DNA from: a virus
Length of the DNA: 36,719 bases
Reading direction: 5' to 3' (one strand)
Virus record (IMG/VR): IMGVR_UViG_3300006810_000148
Location: 1-36,719 of that record
Both the position numbers and the translations under genes were made by a program. The notes below the pieces were generated by a model that did no database searches, was not told the origin of the DNA, and was given only the letters and a program-made list of their open reading frames with translations. The stretch's first letter is position 1; each line of letters begins with the position of its first letter. Below are positions 3,001 through 35,085 of this stretch, in pieces.

Positions 3001-6000
3001 TTTATTAAATTCTTCCTTAAAAGATTTATTTCCTATAATTTTATTACAAAACCCTTCACAGTTTATGTATGGATTTTCTTTATTTATTTTTTCTACTTTA
3101 TCTATTATTTTTTCTACGGTAATTCCAGCTTTTTCTACTTTCTGCTGACGGGTCTGTTGGGCTGATTGTCTATTTTCCCATTCGTTTTTTAAGCTAGTAT
3201 TTTGACCAAAATCAACACTACCACTAATACTCTTCAATTTTCCCAAATCAGTTACTTGTGAGTTAGAAAAATTAGCATAACCACCAATACTTTCTAAGTT
3301 ACCTAAGTCAGTTACTTGTGAGTTAGAAAAATTAGCATAACCACCAATCCTTTCTAAGCTACCTAAATCAGATACTTGTGATTTCTGAAAATCAGCACTT
3401 CTACCAATACTTTCTAAGTTACCTAAGTCAGTTACTTTTGAATTAGTAAAATCAGCAGTTCCACCAATCCTTTCTAAGCTACCTAAATCAGATACTTGTG
3501 AGTTAGAAAAATTAGCAGGTCCACCAATACTCTCTAAGTTACCTAAGTTAGTTACTTGTGAAAACCCAAAAGAAGCCCTACCACCAATACTCTTCAGGTT
3601 ACCTAAGTTAGTTACTTGTGAAAACCCAAAAGAAGCCATACCACCAATACTCTTCAGGTTACCTAAGTCAGATACTTTTGAATCAGTAAAATCAGCAGTT
3701 CCACCAATCCTTTCTAAGCTACCTAAGTTAGTTACTTGTGAATTAGTAAAAACAATATTTCCACCAATATTTTTTAAGTTACCTAAATCAGATACTTGTG
3801 ATTTCTGAAAATCAGCACTTCTACCAATACTTTCTAAGTTACCTAAGTCAGTTACTTGTGAGCTATTAAAATAAGCCCTACCACCAATCCTTTCTAAGCT
3901 ACCTAAGTTAGTTACTTGTGAATTAGTAAAAACAGCAGTTCCACCAATATTTTTTAAGTTACCTAAATCAGATACTTGTGATTCCTTAAACTCAGTATAA
4001 CCACTAATACTTTCTAAGTTACCTAAGTCAGTTACTTGTGAGCTATTAAAATAAGCACTTCCACCAATACTTTTTAAGTTACCTAAGTCAGTTACTTGTG
4101 AGTTAGAAAAATAAGCATCTCCATAAATGTATTTAGGGAAAAAATCAGACGTTATTTCTGATGTAGGTTTGAAATTTCCAATATATAAAAAAGTGTTTGG
4201 TCTAAGTTCTCTTAAATTTCTTGCTACAGGAAAATCAAATTCAGAATCATCAAAAGTTCTTTTTAACTCTGTAACTAATCCATTCTCCCCATAATCAACT
4301 TTAAATTTATCAGCATCTTTTATAAGGTTAAAGTATTCTTTAAGTTTGATTTCATTTATTTTCTTACCTGATATTCTTTCTGTTAAATCTTTTACTTTAG
4401 TATTATACTCAATAGAATCCAACCATTTCTTTCCACTATTATTAGGTATGTTTTCTTTTAAAAACTTATCTGCAACAGGCATCATATCAGGCTCTAAGTC
4501 CTGCTTGCTAGAGGCATTACCCCTAACCTCTCCAACCTCGTCCCCCTTCATTCTTACGGCAATCCTAGATTCGTATTCTCCGTCTTTATTTTTAGTGGCG
4601 TAAACATAAAAGTCCCCACCATCAAGTTGACTCTTTGCATTAGTTTTTGTACACCAGTAAGTATTTTGGACAATCTGAGATAGCTTGTTGGCGTTCTCAA
4701 TCCTAACTTTATTGCTTACAGAAGGCCCTCCTTCAAACTTAACCCACTCTCCCTCTTTAGTTGATACGAAAGAAGATGATTCTACTACATTTAAAGAGTT
4801 TTTAGCTTGTATTTCTACATAATCTTTTAATAAAGATTTACTGTCAATTGCATAAAGAGCTGCCAATGTACCCGCATCAAAAGGTGTAAAGTTCCTTAGT
4901 GTTTTATTGGTTCTTTTTGAGTACTTATTTGTTTTAAAGTCGTAGTTGTTTGTTAGTACAGCATCTAAAATTAAATACTTAAATGAATCATTATAGTCAG
5001 ATTCAGATAGGTAAGACTTCCATTGGTCTAATGTTTCTTTTTGAGTTCCTTTATAATCATTTATAAAACTATCTCTAATACTCCCTGGATTAAAAGCTTG
5101 TTTTGCTTGTTCAATTTGAGCTTCTGAAGCTCCGTCATTAATAAGTGTATCTATTTCAAATTGAATAGCCCCATCTACAGCTTTACTGTCCTCTGACATA
5201 ATATAATTGTCAGAATCCTTTATAAGCTTATCAAACTCTTCTTTTACTTTGCCTTGTATCCCTTCCTTATTAAATTTAACCCCTTGTAGTCCTATTTGCT
5301 TTATAGCTTGAGACTCATATTGATTTTCTATACCAGCCCTAGCGTACTTTAAAACTTCTTGTTCTGAAAGAGTAATTAATCCTTTTTGCTGCCTAACTGA
5401 ATTAACTACCTCTCCTGGAGATTTATTTTCAAGTAAAGCAATATCGGACTGCTCAATAACTTCACCCCTTGCAACCTTACCAGATACAACATCTAAGAAC
5501 TCTAACACCTGCTTGTCGCTGTCTAGGATACCCTCTACTGGCACATTGAGAATCTTAGCAAGCTTTCTTAGCCAATCGTTTATCAAGTCCTTTACAGACT
5601 GCGGAGACGACTCGTAGTTCTCTGCTAATATACCAAAAAGTTGAGCCATACTTTCCTCAGATTGAAGCTCAGTTTTGTAATTTTTAGCAAAGTCATCAAG
5701 CTCTTTAAGTAACTTTTTAGATGCAACCTTCCGAACAGCATCTATCATATTTGACGTAATCTGTTGTGCTTTAGCGTTTGATATGCCGTCCTTTAGTAGT
5801 ATTGCATGGAATACTTCGTGTGCAACTGTTCTTGTGTTTGCTTTTTCTAAATTTATCCTTATTGTCTTTGTTCGTAATACATACTCACCTCTTGAAATAG
5901 GATTCCCTCCAGCAGCTTCAAACTCTTCTTTAGTATTGTACACCTCAATGGTAACGCCCTTGGCAATCTTTGATAAAGCTTTTCTAGCATTTTCTACTTG

Positions 6001-8565: not shown

Positions 8566-10899
8566 TTATTTCGAGAACTTGTTATAGTATTCAGTTAAAG
8601 ATGTTCCTAGTTCGTCTGATGGATTTACTTTACCTTCTGACTCCAACCACTTCTTCATTCCTTCTTTGCCACCTAAGTGAGCTATAGCTCTTAATCCATC
8701 TCTATCATACCCCTCTGCTAAGTCTCCTAATTGGTCTATGTATTTATCAATATCATTAATATGCCAAAGACCAACTTTTGATTGTAAGCTTGGATTTTCT
8801 TGAAACTCATCTAAAGTGAATGTAGCTCCAGTAGAATTTTTGTAATCGTTTAATCTCGCCTCACCAAACTGTAATTCACCAACGTATCTCTCTCCAGATT
8901 TATTTACTCTTGAAGCCGTTGAGTCGTTAGATGATTCACTTTGCTTTAGTTTATTGTAAAATGTTAGCAAATCTAAGGTAGGTTTTCCACCTTCACTACC
9001 CTCTTGCTTTTTAGGTTTACTAATAAATTGCTTGTATGAAGGACTCATTAAAATAGCACCCTTCATATTCCTTTCAAATTTATCTTTCCATCCATCTTCT
9101 TCTAAGTCAACCTCAACCTCTTCCCCATTAGGTTTTGTCATTAGAATTACATCAGAACCAATGCTAGTTTCCTCTAAACCAATTCCTAACTGAGACATCT
9201 TTTTGAGGTAGTCATCTGACAATGAATCCATAAAGTTTTCTTCTGTTATGTCATCTTTGAAGTTCTTTACTGGGTCAGTTAAGTCCGTAACAATAGAAGG
9301 TAATTTAATTTTTGATTGTGGCTTAATTATTCCCTTTGCTTCAGGGTCAATTATATTTAGTAGTGCTCTTTCAGTATTAGACGAATTACTCAAGTCGATT
9401 TCCTCCAATACTTTCCTACCTTCCTTCCCTGGTCTATCATAAACAAGTAAAGTGGATGGGTCTCCTGGTGCTAGCTCATATTGATACCCTTTTAATCCAT
9501 TTAGTATAGAAAAGTCAACCTCGTCAAAATCTCCTCCAGAAAGAAGGTCGTAATTTGAGGAAACAACATTTGAAACAAGATTAGCTTGTTCACTTCTAGG
9601 TTTTGGTAGCATACTAGCAGGGGCTGCCTTTGTTGTTTCAATAGGGGCATTTAAAGCACCAGTTCTTTTTAGTGCATCATCCAACCCTATTTTCTGAACA
9701 GCTCTTATCACATCGTCACTATATCCAGTTTTACCAAACTCTTCATAGTTTCTATTTGCTAACTCGTTTTCAGATATTAGGATTTCTTCTCCACGCTTTA
9801 CATCTCCATTCTTATCTCTACCTTCAACTGGTTTGTGAGCAAAATAAGTTTTTCCGTCAATCTCAACTTTTTTGGAGTTAGTTCTAACGTAGTCGTAAAT
9901 TTCATTTCCACTGAATCCAAGCAAGGTGTTAATTCTTGCATTTGTAGATGTTTGAAGCATTGCTGATGCAGCATCTATGTCAATAGCTCTTTTGTTGGCT
10001 ATAACTGGAACCTTTCCATAACCCTCTATTGACTCAGACTTCATATATGTCCCATAGTCCTTAACATATTCATCAGTAAAGTTTCCATCTCTACCTAAAA
10101 CCCCTTCTTCTTTAAGAGACTTTGTTAAATCTGGAACTCCCTCTACATCTCCACCCATAATAGTTGGATTTAATGACCAGTAACCAAAGCTGTATGGACT
10201 AGCTCCTGGAGCTAGAGTTTGGTTAAGTAAATTGTTTGCAGACATAGTGTACGAATTCCCATCTATTCCTAGCGATTTATTTAACTCTTCTATTGCCTTA
10301 CCTTCAGTAATTAACAATATGTCTGTACCGCTTCCTGTATTAACAAGCTCATACCTAATAGATGCATCTATATTATTGTTTGGGTTTTGAGCTTCTGCAA
10401 AAACCTGGAAGCGAGGGTCAGTACTGGTTGAACTTACAGAACCACCCTTACCATCCATACCATTATTAAGAATAGATTCATTATACGAATCGGTAATTGA
10501 AGTAACAGCCCCAAGTTGCTGTTCTAACCCAGCACTCAAAAACATTTCAGTAGAATTTATAAAAGCTTGGTCATCATCCATTCCATCATAGTAACTTGAT
10601 GAGGAATTATATCTCATCTTAGCTTGAGCTAATTTATCGACAGTTGATTGAACTCCATCAATAAGGCTTTGGGAGTTAACATTGTTTTTGACAGCAACCT
10701 TAGCTATGCCCTTACTAATATCTGATTTGTATTGATTTGCTTTTTTAATTAGCTCAAAGTTCTTCTCTCTATTTTTCTTAGCTACTTCAGCATAGTTTAC
10801 AGTAGTTTGGGTGATACTTTGTTCTATGTCTTTAACATAGTCAACAAATGCATCACCTAGTCTTGTGTCTACTACTAATCTTGGATTTCTATAACTCAT
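8566..10899 (-). CDS. Large internal/ejected virion protein with lysozyme-like (SLT-type) C-terminal domain, 777 aa
   Basis: The first 16 residues, MSYRNPRLVVDTRLGD, are nearly repeated at the start of the 119 aa protein at 29887-30246. The body is mostly helical and charged with no signal peptide. The last 140 residues look like a transglycosylase/lysozyme-like fold: SESSND (candidate catalytic Glu655), then YVGELQFG (equivalent to the G-x-x-Q-F/I motif of SLT domains) and LRAIAHLGGKEGMKKWL, which matches the A-x-x-N/H-x-G motif of that fold. In T7-like particles an internal core protein with a similar domain (gp16) opens the wall during DNA entry. The position here, between a small Ala-rich protein and the giant polyvalent protein, supports that role. 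Lytic activity is predicted from motifs only. Confidence 0.75.
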   Translation of the reverse strand: MSYRNPRLVVDTRLGDAFVDYVKDIEQSITQTTVNYAEVAKKNREKNFELIKKANQYKSDISKGIAKVAVKNNVNSQSLIDGVQSTVDKLAQAKMRYNSSSSYYDGMDDDQAFINSTEMFLSAGLEQQLGAVTSITDSYNESILNNGMDGKGGSVSSTSTDPRFQVFAEAQNPNNNIDASIRYELVNTGSGTDILLITEGKAIEELNKSLGIDGNSYTMSANNLLNQTLAPGASPYSFGYWSLNPTIMGGDVEGVPDLTKSLKEEGVLGRDGNFTDEYVKDYGTYMKSESIEGYGKVPVIANKRAIDIDAASAMLQTSTNARINTLLGFSGNEIYDYVRTNSKKVEIDGKTYFAHKPVEGRDKNGDVKRGEEILISENELANRNYEEFGKTGYSDDVIRAVQKIGLDDALKRTGALNAPIETTKAAPASMLPKPRSEQANLVSNVVSSNYDLLSGGDFDEVDFSILNGLKGYQYELAPGDPSTLLVYDRPGKEGRKVLEEIDLSNSSNTERALLNIIDPEAKGIIKPQSKIKLPSIVTDLTDPVKNFKDDITEENFMDSLSDDYLKKMSQLGIGLEETSIGSDVILMTKPNGEEVEVDLEEDGWKDKFERNMKGAILMSPSYKQFISKPKKQEGSEGGKPTLDLLTFYNKLKQSESSNDSTASRVNKSGERYVGELQFGEARLNDYKNSTGATFTLDEFQENPSLQSKVGLWHINDIDKYIDQLGDLAEGYDRDGLRAIAHLGGKEGMKKWLESEGKVNPSDELGTSLTEYYNKFSK
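10850..10899 (-). repeat. Copy A of the duplicated 50-bp 'MSYR..LVVDTRLGD' coding segment
   Basis: These 50 bases, coding for the first 16 residues of the 777 aa protein, match 30197-30246 at 43 of 50 positions by direct comparison. Copy B starts the 119 aa gene 19 kb away. Confidence 0.9.
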
Positions 10900-10909
10900 T
10901 TCTTATTGT

Positions 10910-11596
10910 TTATTCTTTATTACCTCCAAACAGACCGCCTAATCCACCACCATCTTTACCACCAACGCTACTTAATCCATAAGCTCCTGCCATAAGTCCT
11001 GTCGCCCCTAAGTCATACATACTTTGTCTAGCTAAAACTTGGTTTGCCTGAGATGCTCTTGATTGCGCCCTTGCTTGGTCAGACAATGCTGCATACCTGT
11101 CAAGTTGTGCTTCTTCTCTCCTCTCTCTAGCAGAAAATTGTCTCTGCTGTTCTGCCAATGTTTGAGCTTCTAAATATTGCTGACCTTGCGCTCTTAGTTT
11201 TTCATTCTGAACCTCTTGTTGCTCAATATTTGCAGAAACATTTTTCTTACTTTGTAGTGCAGCTTGTGCTAATGCAGTTGCGCCACCAGCAGCAGCACCT
11301 GTTGCTCTAATCGTGTCTAACGTATTTGCCAATGCAATATCAGTTTGCTCTATTTGAATATCAGTAGCTTGCGTGGCAACACCAAGGTTTGCGTAAGGGT
11401 TGCTTAAGTTCTTACTCAAGTCTGTTATGTCTTGCCTATTATTTTCTATCTGAGTTAACTTATTACGCATCTCTGTTGCATAAGTTGCATCTGCTGATGC
11501 CTGCTTTCTTAAAGACTCATAAGTCTTCTTAGCTCCAAAGAGTTTGACACCTATTGACGCCAGACCTAGCCCTGCTGAAACTGCTCCTAATCCCAT
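10910..11596 (-). CDS. Small Ala/Gln-rich internal virion protein (T7 gp14-like position), 228 aa
   Basis: The N-terminus MGLGAVSAGLGLASIGVKLF is hydrophobic and glycine-rich. A long Ala/Gln/Arg-rich coiled-coil region follows (about residues 25-190), and the protein ends in a second glycine-rich hydrophobic tail (LMAGAYGLSSVGG, GGGLGGLFGG). Small proteins of this composition directly upstream of lysozyme-domain core proteins are typical of podovirus ejection proteins such as T7 gp14, which enters the outer membrane. The homology itself is not demonstrable by eye, so the function is inferred from composition and order. It is 10 bases from the 777 aa gene and 10 bases from the tail gene upstream. 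Confidence 0.65.
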   Translation of the reverse strand: MGLGAVSAGLGLASIGVKLFGAKKTYESLRKQASADATYATEMRNKLTQIENNRQDITDLSKNLSNPYANLGVATQATDIQIEQTDIALANTLDTIRATGAAAGGATALAQAALQSKKNVSANIEQQEVQNEKLRAQGQQYLEAQTLAEQQRQFSARERREEAQLDRYAALSDQARAQSRASQANQVLARQSMYDLGATGLMAGAYGLSSVGGKDGGGLGGLFGGNKE

Positions 11597-11606
11597 TATT
11601 TATTTT

Positions 11607-13295
11607 TTAAGATTTTACAAAATTTGATGACACTGCAAATAAGTTTTTAGCTCCGCCTAAATCTGTTGTGTCATCCGTACTTAATTTAACTGTAGCAAAA
11701 AATCCTTTTATTCCACTCATACTTGCTCCTGGAACAACCTGTCCTGGCATTCCAAATGCAATAGTATTATTACCGTTAGCTTGAACTCCTTTGTTTACTA
11801 AGTTAGCAAAATATTTATTATCTTTTATATTAAATCCAACTCTGTATGTAACCCCTGATTCAGTATAAGAACCTTCGTCATAGCTGTATATAAATGACGA
11901 TTCGTCTTTATAGTTATTACCTTGTAAGTTTCCCGTAGGGTCTGATAAAAAGAAATCAACCTGCCATCCGTTTGTTCCTTCGTAGTTTACTGTATTAAAG
12001 TTTTTAGATACAGATACCATTGGGTTGAAAGATAACGTAACAGATGTTGGGTAGTAAGTTCCATAGAAAGTCCCCCTATTATTAATTACACTTTCATCGT
12101 AATGTTTCCATATAGAACCACCTTTTGTTGTATAATATACATTGTCTAATGTCCCCCCAAAGCTTGGGTCGTAATCCCAAAAACTAGTCCAACCGTTATT
12201 ACTATCGTTGAATGATGCGGTGTCATAAGTTTCTAGTTCAGCCTGCTGCATAGATACAACATACTTGTCGTAGTAATTGTCATATGCCCCAACAATTTTA
12301 TCTTTAACATTTTTATAGAAAGATATGTCAGCTCCAGGATTATACAATTGAACAATGTCATTAAATGTTACAATTTTAGTATTAGGTAGCGGTCCGTTTC
12401 CTACATTAACAACATATAGGCCCTCTGGAAATAAGCTACCTGACAATGCTTGCATTCCAAGCTCTAGGTTTTCAACGGTGTTTACAGCTGAATCAGTAAA
12501 ATAAAGATAATTATTAAAGCCTTCAGGCTGTTGTATGTTTAATGTTAAAGATACTTGAAAGCTTTGTGGACGTTCAGAAATATTTGCTAACGTATCACGG
12601 AAGTAATCCCTCATACCGTACCTACTTATCTCAGTAAGGCCATCTCTTGAAAGCCTCATTATTGCTCCTCTATTTTTATCAGAAAAATACATTCTGTAAC
12701 CTTTAAATGCAAAAGATTCAGGATTATCGCTTATACCATACTCTCCAGCATATTGATTTATTTGACCTAATACAAGCTGAGATGCAGTAAGTGTTGGATT
12801 TCCATCAGCACTATATATTGCATCTTTGTCTATTAAAGCATTACTTACTTTGTCTTCTTGAAATATTATTAAGTTTGTATCTGTTGTATATAGTTTTTGT
12901 ATCTCACCATATCTAGGGTCAAGTTCTTTGGTTATGTTTTCACCTACTGAGAATACATTGGTTTCGTTAACACCCGTTCTTGAGTTATATAAGCCAGAAT
13001 ATATAATGCCATTAGATAGCGTAAGCTCAGTATCCTCTGATTCAGTTATGAATGCTTTAACGCCAAGGTCAACAATTGTATTGTTATACCCCCCACGTAT
13101 ACGAGCTTCTTCAATATACCAGTCGAATAGCACATGGTCCTCATTAGTTGATGCCTCTAAAGGGAATCTAGGGTATCCAGTGGGGTTCCAAGGGAATGAT
13201 GGCCAAGTTGCTTTACCTGGTCCAGCAAGCCCGTCATCTACTACTTTTTTGGCTAAAAAGCAATTAAAATATTCTATTTCTTTAATTAATCCCAT
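11607..13295 (-). CDS. Tail tube/muzzle-associated structural protein, 562 aa
   Basis: The protein is rich in aromatic residues, Asn and Gly, with many short beta segments and no membrane helix. Stretches such as FDWYIEEARIRGGYNN, YGISDNPESFAFKGYRMYF and DKNRGAIMRLSRDGLTEISR recall the tail stabilisation or muzzle proteins of crAss-like and related environmental podoviruses. In some relatives these patterns sit in one large polypeptide, so this protein and the 1316 aa protein just upstream could be a split pair; that is inference. It starts at ATG 13295, six bases after the stop of the 1316 aa gene. No enzymatic motif was found. Confidence 0.65.
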   Translation of the reverse strand: MGLIKEIEYFNCFLAKKVVDDGLAGPGKATWPSFPWNPTGYPRFPLEASTNEDHVLFDWYIEEARIRGGYNNTIVDLGVKAFITESEDTELTLSNGIIYSGLYNSRTGVNETNVFSVGENITKELDPRYGEIQKLYTTDTNLIIFQEDKVSNALIDKDAIYSADGNPTLTASQLVLGQINQYAGEYGISDNPESFAFKGYRMYFSDKNRGAIMRLSRDGLTEISRYGMRDYFRDTLANISERPQSFQVSLTLNIQQPEGFNNYLYFTDSAVNTVENLELGMQALSGSLFPEGLYVVNVGNGPLPNTKIVTFNDIVQLYNPGADISFYKNVKDKIVGAYDNYYDKYVVSMQQAELETYDTASFNDSNNGWTSFWDYDPSFGGTLDNVYYTTKGGSIWKHYDESVINNRGTFYGTYYPTSVTLSFNPMVSVSKNFNTVNYEGTNGWQVDFFLSDPTGNLQGNNYKDESSFIYSYDEGSYTESGVTYRVGFNIKDNKYFANLVNKGVQANGNNTIAFGMPGQVVPGASMSGIKGFFATVKLSTDDTTDLGGAKNLFAVSSNFVKS

Positions 13296-13301
13296 TATAT
13301 G

Positions 13302-16300
13302 TTAATTATTTCTTTTCATTGTAAAATATACATAAAACTGTCCAAGATAGGTTGAACCCCTTACATTCAAAGCTCCACTACCTTCGTTAGCATCATATAC
13401 ATCAGCTAAAAACCTATATTGGGTATCTGTTCTTTGTAAAAAATCACCAACATTTTGATTAGACCCTGAAATAAAATTCGGCCAGTTTGTCCCATTAACA
13501 TTTAAACAAGTGAGACTACCTTTAAATTCAAGATTCTCATTTACTCCATATGAATTTGTTTGTAACCGCAACACATCGGATGCATATAAGCCGTAACTTT
13601 CCCAGTCTGCACCACCAGGTTTTCCCACCCAATAAAATTGCAAGAAAGAGTCTTTCTGAAACTTCCATACCATACCCTCTTTAGCTTTGCTTATATTAGG
13701 GTTATTAGTTCCATTTCTGGAATCAAAATTATACAGCGGAAAATATTGGTTAAATATGTTCGTTCCAGATGCCTCCGTTGGCCAATTTGCGGATGGAATA
13801 TTATACTCAACTACAGGGTTTGTAGTTAACCCAACAATTGTAGGTTTTACGTTTACTAATTTATTGTTGTACCCGTTATACCCTATAGCAATTTCATTGA
13901 CTTCATTTGGCTTTTGTAAACTGCTCCTATCTACAGTGCATCTAAATATAAATCGATACTCGTCAAAGGAAGCACTTGTTTCCGTATAGGTAAAGTAAGA
14001 ACCAGAAGTTGTTCTTAACTTAAACCTATTAGGACTAGATGGGTCAGTATATATTTCAAAAATATTGTCATTTGTTATATCTTGTTCTATTCTTGTAGGA
14101 GATGTCAGAACTATTTTAAAAACTTGTAATAGTTCTACGCTTACTTTACCTGGAAACTTAGTAGTTAAACTAGTACCTACTGAGTTTGTAACATCAAAGA
14201 AAGATGTACTAACAAAGTCTCCTGGAGCTGTAGATTCTTTTAGGTCCCACGTCCAACCTACTATTTTTGCTGGAAAATCACTTCCAATATTTGATAATAT
14301 ACTTTGATTTAATTCAGATATAAGCCCTGAACTACCCGTTTCATAAAATATATCTAAACTAGATTCAAATGGTTCTGTTTCATATACGTTTAATCTTAAA
14401 TCTTTATAGCTTATGTCGCTACCAATAACTTCGTTACCCCCAGGAGTGCCAACCGCCTTCTGTGTGCTAAGTTTAGCTATGTATGGATTTGCCCCTAAGT
14501 TTAATTCTCCAGTTATTGGAGGAGTAACATTAGGTTGTGCTTGTACTTGGGCTTTTGGTATTCCATAAAAAGGGGACACATTGTAGTCTAAACCATTAAC
14601 ATCTAAATTAACTCCTATTTCATCTCTTGTCCCTATTAAAACTACTTTATCAGGAGTTGGAGATGTTTCAAATTGTTGATTAGTTGCCTCATTAAATATT
14701 ACCCCATTGTTATTTACCCTAGGGTATAAGTTTACAGAGCTTGAAAATTGAAGGTCTTGAGGCCCTACTTCTTTTAGGTCTCTTGGCACTTTGTTTATAT
14801 TATCTGAAAACAAAGTTAAAAAAGCAACTTCTTCAGATAAAGGACTTACGCTTATTGGTACAGTCATTGTCGCACCAAGTACTGAACTTGACACCGTTAT
14901 TGTGCTACCAGTAGGATACCTACCATTTCCTGGGTCTGTTATAGTAACTGACTGTACAGTACCATCCGCATTTATTATAACTTGTAATACTAATCCTACC
15001 CCAGCAGGTGCACCAACAATAGTCCAGCCTGAGGTAACACCAACTTCTCCACTATATTGACCCGCATTATATCCACTATTAGGGGTAAAACTAAGTGATG
15101 GGGCAGTACCTGGGTAGTTATTTAAAACTGTTGGTAGGTATACATTGTAATAATCTTGTTCTTTTTGTTGAACAACTACTTTATAGCTATACCATCCCGT
15201 AGGGTTCTCTTCCGAGTACAATCCAGCATATCCAGGATTTCCTATCTGAGATGGAATTAAACCATTAAATTGTATTTTTAAAGAGTCACCTCTATATACT
15301 TTTGTAGAAGTTAAAAATGTAGATGATTTAGAAAGGTAAGGATTGTAAATTGTTGAAAGTTCAGATGAGATAACATCGGATTGCCTGCCAAATTTATCAA
15401 CTAAAACAAATCCAACCTTATAAGACCTGTTCTGCTTTAGCGAATGGTTGGGGTATTCTATTTCACTTACGGAATCAAACTTTCCCGCTTTTGGTTTTTC
15501 CCCAGCAAATACTGAGAATGGTAAATTTGAAGGTCTTGATGTCCTTACTAAATAGTTGCCATACATAACTCTATTTCCAGATAGCTCTTGAGCTTTTGCC
15601 CTAATTGGCACTTTGTCTGAAACTCTAGTAGTTTCGATAGATTGAAGTGTTTGTATTGGAATTTGAGATGTGTATTGATATAAAAATTCTGTATTTCCAT
15701 TAGACTTCAAATCAGCCGTAGGTATGGTTTCAATAATTTTTATAGCATTAGAGTCAGACTCTTTATATAATATATCTATTTCTTTTACTTTTAGGTAAGA
15801 ACTTAAGCTAGACACCGTGGAAACTCCTTCTGGCATATCCATTAATAAACCAATTGAATTTACTTTGTTTTCAAAAAAACTTATTATAGTGCTTTCTATA
15901 GCTCTGTTTTCGTCTGAGTTTGCTTCTGAATCTTGAGTGTTATTAGGAATTGAATCTTCTAAAAAATAACCGTCTTGTCTTGGTATAAAGGCAACTTGTG
16001 AAAATGGAGCGATTAAAGAATATTCGTCATCATCATACTTAAATCTATAACTGAATCTAACAAATCTATCTGTCAAGTAATCAACATCGCCACCAAAGGT
16101 TGCATCATAGTAAGGGTTTGCCCCTATTGTAACTGTGTCAGAAGTATTAATTACCACATTGTTTTCAAGAGTAATAGTAGTTCCATTTATTTCTGTAACC
16201 TTTATGTTATCTGAAACAGTAATTAATTCAACATTGTTACTATTAACCGATGTTACAGTTGCACCAACCCAATTTAAACTTATACTTTTGTCGGCTGTAA

Positions 16301-17252
16301 ATTGGTTTGTACCTCCAGCAATAGCTTCAACAACTTCAGTTTTAGGTAAATTTTTAGAAATAACATCCTTCATAGTGGAGTCTTGATTTAAGTTATTCCT
16401 AGTTAAAGTTATAACTAAATCTTCCGTACTTCCTAATTCCGCCGCAAGTATAGTTATTGTATCACCTACTGCAAACCCAGTCCCTAATAAAGAAATATCA
16501 TCAGATACAATAACCGATTCAACAAGACCATCACTTACTAAAACTGTTATAGTCCCACCATCGCCTGCCCCAGACGTTATAAAATTACCAGTGCCTATAA
16601 CACCAGTATAAGAGCCATCTTCGCCATCATCTATATTTGTTGTTATATTTAAAAAAGCAGAAGGAAACAAATCCCCATTCCCTGTCAGCTTAGATAATTT
16701 TAATGGCTTCCAAGGATAATACTTTGCTACAGAAATATCCTCTTCTTTTGAATAATAGGATGGATTTGACAATGCCGTAGTCACATTTATCTTTCTTGGC
16801 TGATTCCTATTGTCCGTAAAAAATAATAAATCTTCTATTAAGTTTATTCCTAAAATAGGGTTTAGTTTAGCAAAGTTTAAAAAATTACCACTAACTAAAA
16901 CAGAACCAAAATTATTTATTGTATCATATACGCATATGTAATGATTAGATTGTGTTGGTGCAAAATTGGATAATCCATCATTAGAAACATCATTCCAATC
17001 AGTTATAAATGCAAACAGCCTATTATTAGCTGTATCTATGTAAAACCCTATTATTTCAAGATTTACCCCTGTTAACCCAAAGTCAGTTAGCAAAGTATTT
17101 CCACTAACATTTTGAAGTAAGCCAGAATCACTACCCTCAGAATTTATTATTGCCGCATTTCTTGCGTCTATGTAATCTTGGTTTGAAATCATCCTTGGGT
17201 TAAGGTCTTTGTTCATCTTAGCCCCAACAAATATATTTTTAACTTCTGGCAT
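13302..17252 (-). CDS. Large tail tube/muzzle (stabilisation-like) protein with inserted beta modules, 1316 aa
   Basis: The start (KNIFVGAKMNKDLNPRMI, then residues 22-52 with NSEGSDSGLLQNVSGN) is a recurrent N-terminal pattern of crAss-like and related tail proteins, likely a beta-propeller lining the DNA exit channel. DNRNQPRKINV at about 147-157 fits a propeller blade. Two internal modules (about 213-288 and 725-800) carry a GTGF/GNGRY..GDTITI-type pattern also present in the 351 aa ring protein; they look like added beta-sandwich insertions. The length suits the distal tail (muzzle) of podoviruses. Neighbours are ring proteins upstream and the 562 aa tail protein downstream. The exact structural position is inferred. 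Confidence 0.7.
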   Translation of the reverse strand: MPEVKNIFVGAKMNKDLNPRMISNQDYIDARNAAIINSEGSDSGLLQNVSGNTLLTDFGLTGVNLEIIGFYIDTANNRLFAFITDWNDVSNDGLSNFAPTQSNHYICVYDTINNFGSVLVSGNFLNFAKLNPILGINLIEDLLFFTDNRNQPRKINVTTALSNPSYYSKEEDISVAKYYPWKPLKLSKLTGNGDLFPSAFLNITTNIDDGEDGSYTGVIGTGNFITSGAGDGGTITVLVSDGLVESVIVSDDISLLGTGFAVGDTITILAAELGSTEDLVITLTRNNLNQDSTMKDVISKNLPKTEVVEAIAGGTNQFTADKSISLNWVGATVTSVNSNNVELITVSDNIKVTEINGTTITLENNVVINTSDTVTIGANPYYDATFGGDVDYLTDRFVRFSYRFKYDDDEYSLIAPFSQVAFIPRQDGYFLEDSIPNNTQDSEANSDENRAIESTIISFFENKVNSIGLLMDMPEGVSTVSSLSSYLKVKEIDILYKESDSNAIKIIETIPTADLKSNGNTEFLYQYTSQIPIQTLQSIETTRVSDKVPIRAKAQELSGNRVMYGNYLVRTSRPSNLPFSVFAGEKPKAGKFDSVSEIEYPNHSLKQNRSYKVGFVLVDKFGRQSDVISSELSTIYNPYLSKSSTFLTSTKVYRGDSLKIQFNGLIPSQIGNPGYAGLYSEENPTGWYSYKVVVQQKEQDYYNVYLPTVLNNYPGTAPSLSFTPNSGYNAGQYSGEVGVTSGWTIVGAPAGVGLVLQVIINADGTVQSVTITDPGNGRYPTGSTITVSSSVLGATMTVPISVSPLSEEVAFLTLFSDNINKVPRDLKEVGPQDLQFSSSVNLYPRVNNNGVIFNEATNQQFETSPTPDKVVLIGTRDEIGVNLDVNGLDYNVSPFYGIPKAQVQAQPNVTPPITGELNLGANPYIAKLSTQKAVGTPGGNEVIGSDISYKDLRLNVYETEPFESSLDIFYETGSSGLISELNQSILSNIGSDFPAKIVGWTWDLKESTAPGDFVSTSFFDVTNSVGTSLTTKFPGKVSVELLQVFKIVLTSPTRIEQDITNDNIFEIYTDPSSPNRFKLRTTSGSYFTYTETSASFDEYRFIFRCTVDRSSLQKPNEVNEIAIGYNGYNNKLVNVKPTIVGLTTNPVVEYNIPSANWPTEASGTNIFNQYFPLYNFDSRNGTNNPNISKAKEGMVWKFQKDSFLQFYWVGKPGGADWESYGLYASDVLRLQTNSYGVNENLEFKGSLTCLNVNGTNWPNFISGSNQNVGDFLQRTDTQYRFLADVYDANEGSGALNVRGSTYLGQFYVYFTMKRNN

Positions 17253-27789: not shown

Positions 27790-28042
27790 AACCTTTAAAT
27801 TCTTTTTTCTTTACTTCCTCTTTAGGCTTGTCGTTCATAATATCTTCTTCATCTTGGATGCGCTGAAGTATTTCAAATGCATCAAATATAGCAAGTTTTT
27901 TTGTAGCTGCTGCGTTCTTCAATCTATCAGCAGATAGGTCATCACCTGAATCTATTATAGCTTCTTCTGCAACTTTGATAAGCTCATCAACAGCTCTTCG
28001 CCCAGCTTGGATTATATTCCTCTTCGTTTCCTTTATATTCAT
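27761..28042 (-). CDS. Small helical protein, terminase small subunit-like by position, 93 aa
   Basis: ATG 28042 is preferred to an upstream in-frame TTG at 28051. The protein is almost entirely helical: IKETKRNIIQAGRRAVDELI, then DLSADRLKNAAATKKLAIFD and AFEILQRIQDEEDIMN, ending in a basic, Lys-rich tail. It overlaps the GroES-like gene upstream by 56 bases and terL by 29. Small helical proteins in this slot are conserved beside crAss-like terminases and are plausible terminase small subunits (DNA recognition), but no helix-turn-helix can be defined by eye, so this is positional inference. Confidence 0.6.
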   Translation of the reverse strand: MNIKETKRNIIQAGRRAVDELIKVAEEAIIDSGDDLSADRLKNAAATKKLAIFDAFEILQRIQDEEDIMNDKPKEEVKKKEFKGFAEGRANSK

Positions 28043-28583
28043 AGGTAGCAACGATGTTAATTAATTTCATACAATATAATAGTTCCCCATCTATAACAAA
28101 CTCAAACTCTGATGTTGGCCTAAAGGAAACAAGGTCTCCTTCGTTCACACCAAGCTCAACTAGCTCTTTGTTACCATACTTTAAAACACCCATAAGTGGC
28201 TTCTCTTTCTCTAAAGAAAATATGCTATCACTTAGTATTGGTTTTACAAAACAATAATCGAGATGAGTGTTATTTGCTCCGTACATATATATCTGCTCAG
28301 GGGAGCAAGCATACATATCTTCCTTTATAAAGCTTCTACTGTTTTTTTCATTGCCTCTAATGTCATAAAACCTTCTAAACACATTGTGGTGAACAACAAC
28401 CTTGTCGCCAACCTTTATATCAGTTTCTATAGCTAATGGCAATGCAACCACTTCTGCTAACTTGTTTACGCTTTTAAACTCTTCAAGCCTTGTGTTTACA
28501 ATAAGGTCAACATCGTCAACCTTAACAGTATTATTGTATCGACCCTCTATGGGTTTTACGATAAAATCGTGGATACTTTTCAT
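27987..28583 (-). CDS. Tandem GroES-like (co-chaperonin-like) protein, 198 aa
   Basis: Two successive GroES-like beta-barrel halves are visible. Half one (about 5-100) has LIVNTRLEEFKSVNKLAEVV, VGDKVVVHHNVF and DIRG. Half two (about 108-185) has CFVKPI, MGVLKYGNKELVEL, VNEGDLVSFRPTSEFEFVID and GELLYCMK. The V-x-x-G-D-x-V and I-D-G-E-x-L-Y elements are the usual GroES strand signatures. The region where GroES carries its mobile loop lacks the Gly-Gly-hydrophobic tripeptide, so binding to GroEL is doubtful. I recall similar proteins annotated as co-chaperonins beside terminases in environmental phages. Its ATG overlaps the upstream stop (TAATG). Confidence 0.65.
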   Translation of the reverse strand: MKSIHDFIVKPIEGRYNNTVKVDDVDLIVNTRLEEFKSVNKLAEVVALPLAIETDIKVGDKVVVHHNVFRRFYDIRGNEKNSRSFIKEDMYACSPEQIYMYGANNTHLDYCFVKPILSDSIFSLEKEKPLMGVLKYGNKELVELGVNEGDLVSFRPTSEFEFVIDGELLYCMKLINIVATYEYKGNEEEYNPSWAKSC

Positions 28584-29097: not shown

Positions 29098-29541
29098 TTA
29101 TTTTTCTGCTGATGTCCCATAATAGTAGGCAAATATGTTTGAAATTACCACACCTTCAACCATACCCATTAAATGTACAAAGAGTTCGTTATGTAAAACT
29201 CCTTCCTCGTAAACTACTGCGTATATGATAAATAAGAAAGAAACTAACCCAACGATACCTGTAAGCATCATCATAGTATCTTTCCCACCTGCCTTTTTAA
29301 CTTCAACCTCTCTATTTCTAGCAGATTCTCTATCCTTTACTTCTAACTCATACATTTCTTTAGTTTGAGCTAAAGCTTCTTTTTTGTCTTCTGGGCTAAT
29401 CTTTTCGTCTTTCTCTACAAGGTTTTTAACAATACCTAAAACACCTGCGTCTGGTAATAAGTCTCCAGCTATATCTAATATATGTGGAGCAGTCTTACCT
29501 AAAAACTTACCTAACTTTGTATCTTTAAATTTCTTAGACAT
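29098..29541 (-). CDS. Holin-like two-helix membrane protein, 147 aa
   Basis: An amphipathic N-terminus (GKFLGKTAPHILDIAGDLLP) and a charged linker (KDRESARNREVEVKK) precede two membrane segments, about 89-111 (MMMLTGIVGLVSFLFIIYAV) and 121-141 (FVHLMGMVEGVVISNIFAYY), ending YYGTSAEK. The ESARNRE linker and the G-x-x-x-S-x-x-x-Y-Y-x-G-x-S end are the pattern of the GTA/3TM-type holin family. It would form inner-membrane lesions that release the endolysin. The M15 endolysin lies 1 kb upstream in the same strand run. It overlaps the zincin gene by 8 bases. Confidence 0.7.
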   Translation of the reverse strand: MSKKFKDTKLGKFLGKTAPHILDIAGDLLPDAGVLGIVKNLVEKDEKISPEDKKEALAQTKEMYELEVKDRESARNREVEVKKAGGKDTMMMLTGIVGLVSFLFIIYAVVYEEGVLHNELFVHLMGMVEGVVISNIFAYYYGTSAEK

Positions 29542-29884
29542 TGTATTTTTTATCTTTATATTTAGTTTTAGATTTCTTATAAGCCTCTGCTTCCCAAGGA
29601 GAGTTTTTAGGGCTAGCCATTGCTACACCCTTTGAACTTTTTGAATATGCCTTACCCTTCCAATAAATGTTCTTGTCATCATAATCTAAGTCACCTCGTG
29701 ACATTTGGTTAATGTGAACCATTTCATGTCTTATGACTTCATTATGAAATTTAGGGTCAAGCTTTTCATTAAGCACAATAGTTCCATTCCTGTTGCTTTG
29801 ACCAAGAACACCAGGCCCTAAGTCTGCGTGATACACAGATACAGGTTCCTTTTTGTATGGAGGGTTAGACAGTTTAAATGCCAT
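29534..29884 (-). CDS. Small predicted zinc metallopeptidase (HEMVH zincin), 116 aa
   Basis: RHEMVHINQ places HExxH at residues 53-57. A later SPWEAEAYKK (Glu98 or Glu100) is a good candidate for the third zinc ligand in a gluzincin-like arrangement. The N-terminal third is beta-rich (VSVYHADLGPGVLGQSNRNG, TIVLNEKLDP), as in compact phage zincins, and the C-terminus is Lys/Tyr-rich. There is no signal peptide. It starts 2 bases after the stop of the 119 aa gene and overlaps the holin-like gene. Possible roles are processing of virion proteins or lysis; neither is shown. It is much shorter than most peptidase families and could be a minimal domain. Confidence 0.7.
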   Translation of the reverse strand: MAFKLSNPPYKKEPVSVYHADLGPGVLGQSNRNGTIVLNEKLDPKFHNEVIRHEMVHINQMSRGDLDYDDKNIYWKGKAYSKSSKGVAMASPKNSPWEAEAYKKSKTKYKDKKYNV

Positions 29885-29886
29885 TG

Positions 29887-30246
29887 TTACTTACAAGACT
29901 TTTTACCCATCATTGCAGCACCTCTGCCACCCATATGCTTAGAAATTTGGCAACCTGACTTCATCATAGGTTTATCGTATCCACCTTTCATCATAGGTTT
30001 ATCGTATCCACCCATCATAGGCTTGTCGTAAGAACCCATAGAAGTTCCTGCCATATTAATTCCAGACCTCATATCAACGCTCCCTTCGTCAGATTCTTCA
30101 TCTTTTTTATCTTCAGAATCTTCATTTTTTGATTTTTCTTTTTTAGTAAGAGTTTTCTGAATTTGTTTTTGGCTATCTTTCATTGAAGAAATTAAACCAT
30201 CACCTAATCTTGTATCTACTACTAATTTTGCATCTCTGTAACTCAT
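29887..30246 (-). CDS. Small Met-rich protein sharing its N-terminus with the 777 aa virion protein, 119 aa
   Basis: The first 16 residues, MSYRDAKLVVDTRLGD, match MSYRNPRLVVDTRLGD of the protein at 8566-10899 (13 of 16 identical). A Lys/Glu/Asp-rich disordered stretch follows (30-57), then three copies of a GGYDKPMM-type repeat (about 71-96) and a Gly/Met/Cys/Lys end. There is no membrane segment. The shared N-terminus suggests a common targeting or docking peptide, for example packaging into the same head or tail site. The protein lies in a run of small genes between the endolysin and the holin-like gene. Function unknown. Confidence 0.75.
   Translation of the reverse strand: MSYRDAKLVVDTRLGDGLISSMKDSQKQIQKTLTKKEKSKNEDSEDKKDEESDEGSVDMRSGINMAGTSMGSYDKPMMGGYDKPMMKGGYDKPMMKSGCQISKHMGGRGAAMMGKKSCK
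29962..30030 (-). repeat. Short tandem repeat coding for GGYDKPMM units
   Basis: Near-identical units begin at 29962, 29989 and 30013 (plus-strand text catcataggtttatcgtat), with spacings of 27 and 24 bases. They encode YDKPMM repeats separated by GG or KGG. The third is truncated and slightly diverged. The pattern indicates slippage-driven growth. Confidence 0.85.
30197..30246 (-). repeat. Copy B of the duplicated 50-bp 'MSYR..LVVDTRLGD' coding segment
   Basis: Matches 10850-10899 at 43 of 50 positions and encodes the start of the 119 aa protein. Confidence 0.9.
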
Positions 30247-31627: not shown

Positions 31628-32833
31628 TTACTTTTTGTATTTGTTTTTTCTTGACATTCCTTTATTAAATCCATCTCCTGTCATTTGTAGTCCTACTATT
31701 TTTTTCGCCGCTTCTATTTCTGCCTGCTTTTGCGACTCTATTTTTTTTGCTTTCTCTTGGTTTGCTTGTTTTAGATTAGCGTCAAAATTAGCAGCTTCAC
31801 TTTTGGATACACTCAACCAAGAAGGAATTTTCGTCCCAGTTCTTTTTTCGTCTTCAGCCATTTGTTGTTTATTATAAGCTTCTCTTACCACTTTAGCTTC
31901 AAGAGGCATTCCTAAAAGCTTATAAGCTCTTTCTATTTTATTTAAATTATCAGACGTTATACCTACAGCATTATTTGTTTTGCTTTTAGGAATTTTTAAA
32001 TCATCTTTACTAATGTCTTCACGTCCTTCTGACCTTGTAAATGACATGAACCCTTCTTTACTTGTAGGTGATTGTTCAGTTTTTTTCAATCTTTTTGTTT
32101 CTTCGTTTTTTTGTTGATTATATGCGTTCATACTTTCATCAACTTTTTTAAACAATGCTTTGTTTCCTCTTTTTAATCTTTCTGCTCTTTCTGCTCTTTC
32201 TGCTTTTAAAGTGTCTGGAGTTGTAGGAAGTGTTTTAAATTCATCTGTCTTTTTAGGAACTCTAATTTCCGCCTTAGACGATGATGGGGTAGGAGATGTG
32301 CTTTGTATTTTCTTAACTCCTTTTCTCTCAATAGATTTTGCATCTCTACCTTCAGAAAGCATTTCTCTTTTTAAAGAAAGCATTTCTCTTTTAGCAGCTT
32401 TCCTTGCTTTTCGCTTTTCTGCTCCTCTACTAGCTAAATTCTCAGCAGTAGCAGCCATTAAAGAAAAGTAGTCACTACCCATAGGTGTTGCCTTTACAAA
32501 ATCAACCTCAGCGTTTTTAGCGGCTTCTTTACCTGCTTTTCTAATCTGCTTTTTTTCATCTCTACCTGCCTTTCTAATCTGCTTTTTTTCATCTCTTTCT
32601 CTATCCGTATCCTTTTGATTCCTCAATGGCAGATAACTCATAATTTGAGCCTTAATAATCTCAGGAGTTGTAAACTTTTCAGTAACTTTTGCGATAGACT
32701 TACCTTTGTTACTCGGTTTTACTACCTCTGAATCACCATCAGTAAATTTGTTAAGTTCTTGCTTTAAGTAATAGTTTGCACTTAAACCAGTTCCTGATGT
32801 CTGCTTAAGCATTGATTTTATTTTATAAGCCAT
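31628..32833 (-). CDS. Lys/Arg-rich repeat-containing protein, 401 aa, unknown function
   Basis: Strongly charged with little globular sequence. An 11-residue unit RDEKKQIRKAG occurs twice in tandem (80-90, 91-101), KREMLS twice (about 147-160), and AERAER once. The C-terminal third is helical with KIERAYKLLGMPLEAKVVRE and a coiled-coil Lys/Gln/Glu stretch. No membrane helix or catalytic motif. It overlaps the winged-helix gene by 11 bases and is followed after one base by the 83 aa gene. It may be an internal DNA-associated or scaffold-like virion protein, but this is only a guess from charge and neighbourhood. Confidence 0.65.
   Translation of the reverse strand: MAYKIKSMLKQTSGTGLSANYYLKQELNKFTDGDSEVVKPSNKGKSIAKVTEKFTTPEIIKAQIMSYLPLRNQKDTDRERDEKKQIRKAGRDEKKQIRKAGKEAAKNAEVDFVKATPMGSDYFSLMAATAENLASRGAEKRKARKAAKREMLSLKREMLSEGRDAKSIERKGVKKIQSTSPTPSSSKAEIRVPKKTDEFKTLPTTPDTLKAERAERAERLKRGNKALFKKVDESMNAYNQQKNEETKRLKKTEQSPTSKEGFMSFTRSEGREDISKDDLKIPKSKTNNAVGITSDNLNKIERAYKLLGMPLEAKVVREAYNKQQMAEDEKRTGTKIPSWLSVSKSEAANFDANLKQANQEKAKKIESQKQAEIEAAKKIVGLQMTGDGFNKGMSRKNKYKK
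32531..32596 (-). repeat. 33-bp tandem duplication coding for RDEKKQIRKAG twice
   Basis: 32531-32563 and 32564-32596 agree at 32 of 33 bases. This is a recent in-frame slippage event in the 401 aa gene. Confidence 0.93.
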
Positions 32834-33287
32834 TGTTTATTGTTTTATCTTTGTTTACGTCTAATATTGATTTTTTTAAAACCTTATCGGTGTATGTTTC
32901 ACCCTTCATTATCTTGTTGCGCCTCTTGCTTGTTGGTATGTCTTCCTCTCCAACCATTATCTTGTAGATTCTATTGATGAGGTTCTTACCCTTGAATGAT
33001 ACCTTGTAGATATTCTTCTTAGTGTTAACTCTATCTCTCTTTGAGAATACTGTCAACCAACCACCATCCATAAGCCTAGACCACCTTGCACTGTCCCAAC
33101 TGTGTGAGTACTGACCATCTATAAAGTCTAACCTATTAAATAGACCAACGCAGTCTAAGTATATTAGTATCTCTAAGTCTGTTGTACTAATATCATTATT
33201 CTTCGCTGCCCACTTTCTAATAACTCTGTAGTGCTTAAGTATGCTTAAGTCTCTTAAGTCGGAGTACTCTAACTTTCCACCTCTCAT
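32823..33287 (-). CDS. Predicted winged-helix (MarR-like) DNA-binding protein, 154 aa
   Basis: The order ISTTDLEILIYLDCVGLFNR (helices), then HSWDSARWSRLMDGGWLTVF (recognition-helix position and wing) and RVNTKKNIYKVSFKGKNLIN (strand pair), resembles a MarR-type winged helix. The N-terminus (KHYRVIRKWAAKNND) and C-terminus are basic. The start at 33287 overlaps the GroES stop (TAATG), so it is coupled to the chaperonin genes. It could regulate late transcription or be a structural DNA-binding protein. The fold call is by eye and moderate. Confidence 0.55.
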   Translation of the reverse strand: MRGGKLEYSDLRDLSILKHYRVIRKWAAKNNDISTTDLEILIYLDCVGLFNRLDFIDGQYSHSWDSARWSRLMDGGWLTVFSKRDRVNTKKNIYKVSFKGKNLINRIYKIMVGEEDIPTSKRRNKIMKGETYTDKVLKKSILDVNKDKTINNGL

Positions 33288-33547
33288 TATAAAACAACTA
33301 CTACGTCAAACTCCTTGATTACTTTGTAAATTACCTTGTCAATCTCCATATCAAACCCTGCGTGTCTGTCGTAGTAAATGGTATCTCCATCTTGTACTCC
33401 TTCAACTAAGGTTCCAATGGTCTTTACTTTAGCCTTTCTGTATCTTATATCTTCTCTGTGACTCTCTCCTAAAATTAAACCACCTTTTGTAGATACTTCG
33501 TTTTCCTTTACAGGCTCTATCAACATATACTTTCCTACTGCCTTCAT
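33287..33547 (-). CDS. groES: Phage GroES co-chaperonin, 86 aa
   Basis: A canonical GroES plan: MKAVGKYMLIEPVKENEVST, then the mobile loop TKGGLILGESHRED (GGLIL at 22-26 corresponds to the GroEL-binding GGIVL), then KVKTIGTLVEG, VQDGDTIYYDRHAGFDMEID and a final strand ending VVVVL. It is about ten residues shorter than bacterial GroES. The gene starts on the last base of the GroEL stop (TAATG) and overlaps the next gene the same way. The intact loop argues it works with the phage GroEL. Confidence 0.92.
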   Translation of the reverse strand: MKAVGKYMLIEPVKENEVSTKGGLILGESHREDIRYRKAKVKTIGTLVEGVQDGDTIYYDRHAGFDMEIDKVIYKVIKEFDVVVVL

Positions 33548-35085
33548 TATGCTCTTAAGTTATTAATTACACAATCAGTTGCAAGTATCGTATTAGCTAC
33601 AGATGCCGCATTTTTTAATGCACTTTTAGTAACAAGTAGTGGGTCAATAATTCCTGCCTTAATCATATTAACTACTTCTTCTGTAACTACATTGTACCCA
33701 CGTCCTTTTTTAGTAGGGTATTCAAACTTAGTGATACCAGCATTGGACATTATAACTTCAAATGGAGCTTGAATAGCTTTTAGAAGTATTTCTTCTCCTA
33801 TGTTAGATGGGGTTACCTTACCACTAGCGTTAAGTAATGCAATTCCACCACCTGGAAGTATACCTTCTTTAATAGCCGCTTTAGTGGCACAGATAGAATC
33901 CTCTACTCTGTCAGCCTTCTCCTTTAACTCAACCTCTGAGTTTGCACCAACTTTAATTACACCAACCTTACCAGCTAGTCTTGACAACCTTCTTTCAAGC
34001 AAGTGTTTCTTACCATTAATCTTTGTTGTCTTAAGTTCTTTTTTAATATGCTTGATTAGAGCCTTTGTGTCGTCATTAATCTCCTCTACTTGGATGATAG
34101 TATCATCTTGTGTAGTAACAGCCTTTAAACACGTTCCTAGGTGGCTTACGTCAATTAAATCCATATCGTCACCTAAGTCCTCATTTATTACAGTTGCTCC
34201 AGTCAATGCAGCAAAGTCTTGTAATGTTTGCTTTTTATTAATACCGTAGTCAGGTGCGTCAATGATATTAGCTTTAATGTTACCCTTAGATACGTTCATT
34301 GAAATCGCTGTAACTAGCTGTTCATCGGCATCTCCGATAATTAGTAGTTCCTTGTTGTTCTTAATGACGTACTCAAGAATACTTTGTACCTTTCTTACGT
34401 TAGGTATTTTGCTTTCTACAATTAATACAAGTGGGTTATTTAACTCACAAGTACCTTTCTCTTTGTTATTAATAAAGTGGTGATTCTTTAATCCTTTATC
34501 AATTGAAGCTCCATCAACTATTTCTGCCGATGTTTCCTCGTCATTAGATATTTCCATACTAACAACACCATTCTCTCCTACATCCTCAAAAGCCTTAGCT
34601 ATAATTTTACCTAAGCTAGAGTCGTTGTTAGAAGATATTGTGGCAACCTGCTTTAGCATATCACCACTAACTTCAACTGATTCGCCCTCTAAGTACTTAA
34701 CGACCTTTTCAACTGCTGAGTTAATACCATCTCTGATTTCTCTTGAGTTGTAGTTGTCTGTTGCAAATGCCTCTTTTAATATAGAGTGTGCTAGTACTGT
34801 AGCAGTAGTTGTTCCATCCCCTGCTTCTTTAACAGTTTGTCTAGCTGCTTCCTTTAAAAGCGTTGCACCCATATTTTCAACAGGGTCTAGAAGTATAACT
34901 GAGTTAGCTACTGTCACCCCATCCTTTGTGATTAGTGGTTTGCCAGATGAGTCCTCAAGCATTACACACTTACCGCTAGCTCCTAATGTGGAACTAACGG
35001 CTCGTGTTAATTTTGATACACCTTCAAACACTTTATTTTTACCTTCGTCTCCGAAGTTTAAGTTCTTAACGATTTCGTTAGACAT
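33547..35085 (-). CDS. groEL: Phage GroEL chaperonin, 512 aa
   Basis: A nearly full-length group I chaperonin. GDGTTTATVL (89-98, Asp90 equivalent to E. coli Asp87) and RVEDSICATKAAIKEGILPG (Asp396 equivalent to Asp398) supply the ATPase residues; DKGLKNHHFINN marks the apical domain. By hand alignment, binding positions differ: E. coli Tyr199, Tyr203, Leu234 and Val263 are Leu, His, Gln and Ser here, while Phe204 and Leu237 are kept. The GGM-rich C-terminal tail is missing; the protein ends at INNLRA. The gene order is EL then ES, the reverse of most bacterial operons. It lies between structural and lysis genes, suggesting late expression to fold phage virion proteins. Confidence 0.95.
   Translation of the reverse strand: MSNEIVKNLNFGDEGKNKVFEGVSKLTRAVSSTLGASGKCVMLEDSSGKPLITKDGVTVANSVILLDPVENMGATLLKEAARQTVKEAGDGTTTATVLAHSILKEAFATDNYNSREIRDGINSAVEKVVKYLEGESVEVSGDMLKQVATISSNNDSSLGKIIAKAFEDVGENGVVSMEISNDEETSAEIVDGASIDKGLKNHHFINNKEKGTCELNNPLVLIVESKIPNVRKVQSILEYVIKNNKELLIIGDADEQLVTAISMNVSKGNIKANIIDAPDYGINKKQTLQDFAALTGATVINEDLGDDMDLIDVSHLGTCLKAVTTQDDTIIQVEEINDDTKALIKHIKKELKTTKINGKKHLLERRLSRLAGKVGVIKVGANSEVELKEKADRVEDSICATKAAIKEGILPGGGIALLNASGKVTPSNIGEEILLKAIQAPFEVIMSNAGITKFEYPTKKGRGYNVVTEEVVNMIKAGIIDPLLVTKSALKNAASVANTILATDCVINNLRA

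Follow-up and report, generated by a model that had tools for sequence, protein, structure and literature searches.

Why should one phage begin two otherwise different proteins, the first large and carrying a lysozyme-type domain, the second small and rich in methionine, with the same short peptide? This question is raised by the IMG/VR record IMGVR_UViG_3300006810_000148, a stretch of 36,719 nucleotides that was analysed over its whole length and is referred to below as the window. The phages bearing this N-terminal peptide are a group of marine phages, and the capsid protein, portal and terminase of the window affiliate it with the flavobacterial podovirus group that includes Cellulophaga phage phi38:1 (Pervagoviridae), the Flavobacterium elemo phages and Maribacter phage Panino. 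The window also encodes GroEL, a short GroES and a second, longer GroES-like protein next to the terminase (27987-28583 and 33287-35085, minus strand). The features relevant to the question are as follows:

1-8559, minus strand: giant protein at the T7 gp16 position, 2853 aa in the window and open at the window edge
8566-10899, minus strand: 777-aa protein with the tag, at a T7 gp15-like position, with a C-terminal lysozyme/endolysin-like domain
10852-10899, minus strand: 16-codon tag MSYRNPRLVVDTRLGD, start of the 777-aa protein; weak similarity to the second copy continues to approximately 10819
10910-11596, minus strand: 228-aa protein at the T7 gp14 position, directly upstream of the 777-aa gene, its middle strongly conserved
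29534-29884, minus strand: 116-aa HExxH metallopeptidase-like protein (p116), directly downstream of the Met-rich gene
29887-30246, minus strand: 119-aa Met-rich protein with the second tag
29890-30069, minus strand: constant C-terminal part of the Met-rich family (INMAGTSMG..KPMM..GCQISKHMGG)
30199-30246, minus strand: 16-codon tag MSYRDAKLVVDTRLGD, start of the 119-aa protein; weak similarity to the other copy continues to approximately 30166

A peptide shared by two genes of one phage

The shared N-terminal tag described in the original prediction was recovered on both proteins, whose reading frames lie on the minus strand and have ATG starts. MSYRNPRLVVDTRLGD and MSYRDAKLVVDTRLGD are identical at 13 of 16 residues and, as had been stated, 43 of their first 50 coding bases agree. 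Among the N-termini of the 52 ORFs in the window this pair is the best scoring (62, against a peak of 32 in 200 residue-shuffled sets), and a tblastn search of the window with the 119-aa protein matches the 777-aa gene at an E-value of ~1e-7. The accompanying statement that the rest of the two proteins is unrelated holds past approximately codon 27, where similarity stops, but not immediately beyond the 16 residues, where weak similarity continues (15/24 identical, with hydrophobic residues similarly spaced). Because similarity persists to about codon 27, the shared unit appears from its sequence to be a motif of 12 to 16 residues together with the start of a helix.

Conservation of the motif at the gp15 position

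The 777-aa gene is located downstream of the head genes, between the genes for the 228-aa and giant proteins, which is the order of T7 genes 14, 15 and 16 and is kept in relatives and in phi38:1 (gp099-gp100-gp101). In phi38:1 the protein at the corresponding position, gp100, carries a structural annotation by similarity. Because of this synteny we infer that the 777-aa protein is a large, ejection-protein-like component of the virion; the 119-aa Met-rich protein would likewise be placed in the particle by synteny. The lysozyme-type domain previously assigned to the 777-aa protein was corroborated by a PHROG endolysin match over residues 664-773 (E 6e-9). The likeness to T7 gp15 is a positional analogy, comprising a small, a large and a giant gene in succession and, in the large protein, an N-terminal segment that precedes a largely helical body, whereas sequence similarity is undetectable (for the 777-aa protein, no Pfam match and nothing credible in a PDB profile search) and the lysozyme-type domain is found here on the gp15-position protein. 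T7 gp15 is the tunnel protein, and its residues 67-91, near the N-terminus, move on ejection and are thought to associate with gp14 (PMC8954989). By inference, the 228-aa protein is a candidate binding partner of the peptide studied here. AlphaFold modelling of the 777-aa protein (mean pLDDT 58) predicts residues 1-12 to be unstructured and a long helix to begin at residue 13, at low confidence, and such an unstructured stretch ahead of a helix is what would be expected of a linear motif. Two other observations concern the neighbours of this gene. The 562- and 1316-aa proteins (11607-17252, minus strand) match separate parts of phrog_14478 (profile positions 935-1097 and 1-182), which suggests a split or shuffled structural gene. 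The giant protein (1-8559, minus strand) opens with a unit of ~45 residues present twice (EYEGVSYPES.LR..YP..FD.YVEQGIL.K), and short tandem units, different ones, also open the giant proteins of the related contig G050, MW202828 and phi38:1.

A search of IMG/VR with a degenerate DNA pattern encoding M-x-Y-[RK]-N-P...V-D...G recovered 30 stretches, nearly all of them encoding gp15-position proteins that start like MSYRNPQQVVDTQSGQ. For a sample independent of this pattern, N-termini were taken from the gene following the 228-aa homologue, giving 33 distinct sequences, none of which had been fetched by the tag pattern alone. The motif [S/T]Y-x-x-P, in the form M(S/GT/ST)Y-x-x-P, opens 22 of the 33, with proline at position 6 in all 22, while 11 have other starts; the consensus reads [S/T]-Y-x-x-P-x(4)-(V/I)-D-x(3)-G and is followed by the start of the helix. 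An alignment of seven gp15-position proteins has eight invariant columns (M1, Y3, P6, D11, G15, N72, G153 and N207), five of them within the first 15 residues, and the motif is kept even in relatives (G035, G038, G048 and G039) where tblastn with the 777-aa protein finds its first 72-92 residues only. In G057 and G006 the gp15-position protein is without the motif. As judged from these alignments, the peptide is a feature of the gp15-position family and the best-conserved part of these fast-evolving proteins. Synonymous codons differ among the gp15-type relatives at conserved positions (S2 AGT/AGC/TCA, N5 AAT/AAC, P6 CCA/CCT, D11 GAC/GAT, T12 ACA/ACT/ACG), indicating that selection acts on the peptide and ruling out purely RNA-level conservation of the gp15-type copy. 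That the tag is peculiar to this phage is also ruled out, as relatives carry it, and the observation is real and both stronger and more general than originally described. A search of the cultured-phage collection with the tag returned no relative at E-values up to 10, and inspection by eye for covariation between the tag and the aligned 228-aa protein gave no clear signal. Assembly signals of phage ejection proteins are hard to find as the proteins diverge fast; here a short motif persists while the remainder of the gp15-position protein turns unrecognisable.

The Met-rich protein and its exchangeable N-terminus

Homologues of the 119-aa protein have a C-terminal part in common (MAGTSMGS..KPMM..GCQISKHMGG) but not an N-terminus, and it is this constant part, rather than the N-terminus, that defines the Met-rich family. 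The gene for the HExxH metallopeptidase-like p116 adjoins the Met-rich gene on its downstream side in nearly all relatives. With this conserved gene as an anchor, the ORF upstream of it was surveyed in about 80 contigs, revealing at least five N-terminal types (MK[DN]KSMI, MNKYKQ, MDKSRK, M[NK]K[AS]EKYD and the tag). Nearly all Met-rich relatives are without the tag, and the N-termini of L003, L005 and L181 differ from that of the window, yet the adjacent p116 is 95-96% identical. The number of types and the differing ends beside near-identical p116 genes therefore indicate frequent exchange of the N-terminus in this slot, and the tag is dispensable there because most relatives carry other N-termini. 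In the available data the tag on the Met-rich protein is confined to two lineages, window/L180 and L182/L183. Most relatives keep only one copy, an outcome that the original prediction had named as speaking against it; the exception is the L182, L183/G050 lineage. An N-terminal scan of all fetched loci found the tag on these two kinds of protein only, bar weak matches at chance level. A further tagged protein in G032 (MDYKNPLKMIDPLTG) was set aside as probably due to chance, its DPxTG part belonging to a family of its own, and the one match from a scan of genome contigs for the tag was also judged to be chance.

The Met-rich proteins of L182 and L183 start MSYSKPKL[S/F]VDNRLAEGYIKNSEK, after which the Met-rich part follows. 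G050, the 56-kb contig of L183, includes a gp15-position gene (MSYTKPRLVIDNRLGEAYIESVKK), and its tagged pair consists of MSYTKPRLVIDNRLGEAYI (870 aa, gp15-position) and MSYSKPKLFVDNRLAEGYI (178 aa, Met-rich). Common to both G050 copies are K5, N12, E16, Y18, K24 and G26, as well as T/S at position 4, and common to the window pair are R4, T12, D16 and D24. Over 27 codons (81 coding bases), 11 parsimony sites unite the two copies of one genome, 2 unite the copies of one protein and none is crossed. Phylogenetically, on terminase, portal and capsid proteins, the window, G030, G036 and G057 fall in a clade with G050 as its sister, and the Met-rich proteins of G030, G036 and G057 are untagged. With the sites grouping in this way (11:2:0), the start of the gp15-position gene, a segment of about 27 codons and perhaps a little of the leader, was copied onto the Met-rich gene either twice, or once and then overwritten from the gp15-type gene of the same genome, and a single old duplication with the copies evolving independently is disfavoured. 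Because the residues K7 and G17 are common to the two Met-rich copies alone, a single origin followed by gene conversion retains some plausibility. Such natural transfer onto a second protein amounts to an evolutionary fusion experiment.

When the Met-rich gene of L182 is compared with that of G050, 3 synonymous and 2 nonsynonymous differences fall in codons 1-38, against 0 and 8, respectively, in the adjoining linker (the next 9 codons). For this single pair of sequences (n=1), the pattern points to constraint on the tag and the helix following it. The Met-rich copies also depart from the gp15-type motif: the window copy has alanine at position 6, which is proline in all tag-like N-termini of gp15-position proteins, and the G050 copy has alanine at position 15, where glycine is invariant in the seven-member alignment. 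Given these substitutions, the Met-rich copies may not bind in the same way as the original.

Proposed docking role and alternatives

The original prediction interpreted the tag as a targeting signal. What stands of this is a conserved, portable N-terminal unit present on an unrelated second protein in two lineages and, in one of them, under constraint, which would suit a docking or packaging role. The reading we favour, to which we assign a probability of roughly 0.5, is that the peptide serves the gp15-position ejection protein as a short motif for docking or packaging at its N-terminus, and that the Met-rich protein has borrowed it. The free N-terminus of the gp15-position protein would bind an internal site at head assembly (the portal, the 228-aa gp14-type protein or a scaffold), and this docking would bring the ejection protein into the particle. 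A Met-rich protein with the borrowed motif would reach the same site and be co-packaged. It is conceivable, but we hold it only tentatively, that the virion-entry motif [S/T]YxxP....(V/I)D...G and its helix act more broadly as a cargo tag, passed twice within a genome, so that a new payload would be taken on at the ejection machinery and might then reach the host.

The original prediction knew of no described signal of this kind, but the T4 capsid targeting sequence (CTS) is a precedent (PMC3012670; PMC7411985). It is described as the one stretch conserved among internal proteins that differ widely elsewhere (PMC3012670), and it is cut off by the gp21 protease (PMC7411985). In T4, as in the window and G050 pairs, a short conserved N-terminal peptide stands on otherwise unrelated proteins of one phage, and the remainder of the carriers is free to diversify. 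The carriers of the CTS are IPI, IPII, IPIII and Alt, whereas the peptide of these phages has a large ejection-type protein as its first carrier and an occasionally acquired place on the second, and packaging is putative. Sequence and phage group also differ, and neither a prohead protease nor a conserved cleavage site was recognised here. The peptide is best read as working similarly to the CTS, a likeness in arrangement that carries no claim to membership of the CTS class; the motif itself appears to be new, and it is the kind of signal that has a precedent. In the portion available of the crAss001 account, gp45 and gp46 are described as cargo proteins, internal and ejected, that short segments hold at the portal and tail (PMC10172136). 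These are likewise internal ejected proteins in a phage of Bacteroidota, but the virus groups differ and that portion reports no shared N-terminal peptide. Phage tail fibre anchors also combine a constant N-terminal attachment part with otherwise different proteins, but fibres are adhesins on the outside of the particle whose homologous N-terminal domains are longer, and the tag carriers here are not fibre-like. Pairs with a fibre-type constant N-terminus seem to be present in these genomes too (G067, G035).

Instead of a docking motif, the Met-rich gene may have borrowed a translation start: through recombination it would have acquired the leader and opening codons from a late gene that is expressed well, gaining in expression level or timing while the peptide itself stays idle. 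We consider this unlikely, although similarity of the leaders 5' of the ATG is raised in both pairs, at 12/18 positions in the window, which 6% of window gene pairs equal, and at 13/18 in G050, within the top 1.1% of gene pairs. A slot that swaps its N-termini often might also accept any in-frame start, and an idle peptide would be compatible with the way the copies have lost conserved gp15-type positions (A6 in the window copy, A15 in that of G050). However, leaders in these AT-rich genomes are alike in general (a mean of 7/18), the similarity to about codon 27 is longer than a start region requires, and the mostly silent change of the first 38 codons between L182 and G050, not continued in the next 9, argues for a constrained product. 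We regard as no less improbable a neutral recombination product, in which recombination at a hot spot happened to join the two segments in frame and the fusion was retained without benefit. Such an origin would accord with the restriction of the tagged Met-rich protein to two lineages, with its absence from close relatives as judged by p116, and with the variety of N-terminal types in the slot, but not readily with the fact that in two lineages one and the same donor end became joined in frame to the Met-rich gene at its start codon, nor with a reading frame that is intact and constrained in L182/G050.

The T4 gp21 protease cleaves at L-x-E, and P22 gp7 has N-terminal residues removed. A prepeptide by which both proteins would enter the prohead, and which a phage protease would then cleave near G15, as in T4, would be in line with these examples, with the L-G-E or L-A-E ending of the G050 and G054 tags (L271:3212-5821, L272:4341-4877; LGD in the window) and with the HExxH protein p116 encoded beside the Met-rich gene, but it is improbable, as position 14 varies across the family between L, S, A and T and position 16 between D, E, Q and K (LGD, LGE, SGQ, SGK, LGK). 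A search of eight related records for a prohead protease of the Peptidase_S78 or ClpP type gave no match, and in a search for S77 proteases the records and the control alike gave none. The suggestion of processing at LGD is accordingly not upheld, given the variable positions 14 and 16 and the lack of a Peptidase_S78/ClpP-type match in the eight records searched.

Should the motif prove to be a loading signal, many uncultured marine phages would gain a sequence handle from which their virion cargo could be predicted, and a loading tag open to testing would be at hand outside T4; should it not, the exchange of N-termini in a small phage gene is clearly documented all the same. A second N-terminal tag is a candidate in the same phages. 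The 401-aa protein of the window (31628-32833, minus strand) and its counterparts of 181-410 aa (L008, L010, L013, L195, L202, L204 and L277) have only the short N-terminus M[AG]YK[TI]KSM[IL] in common. A second protein of G057 (L277), of 144 aa, begins in the same way, and the untagged Met-rich start MK[DN]KSMI resembles it.
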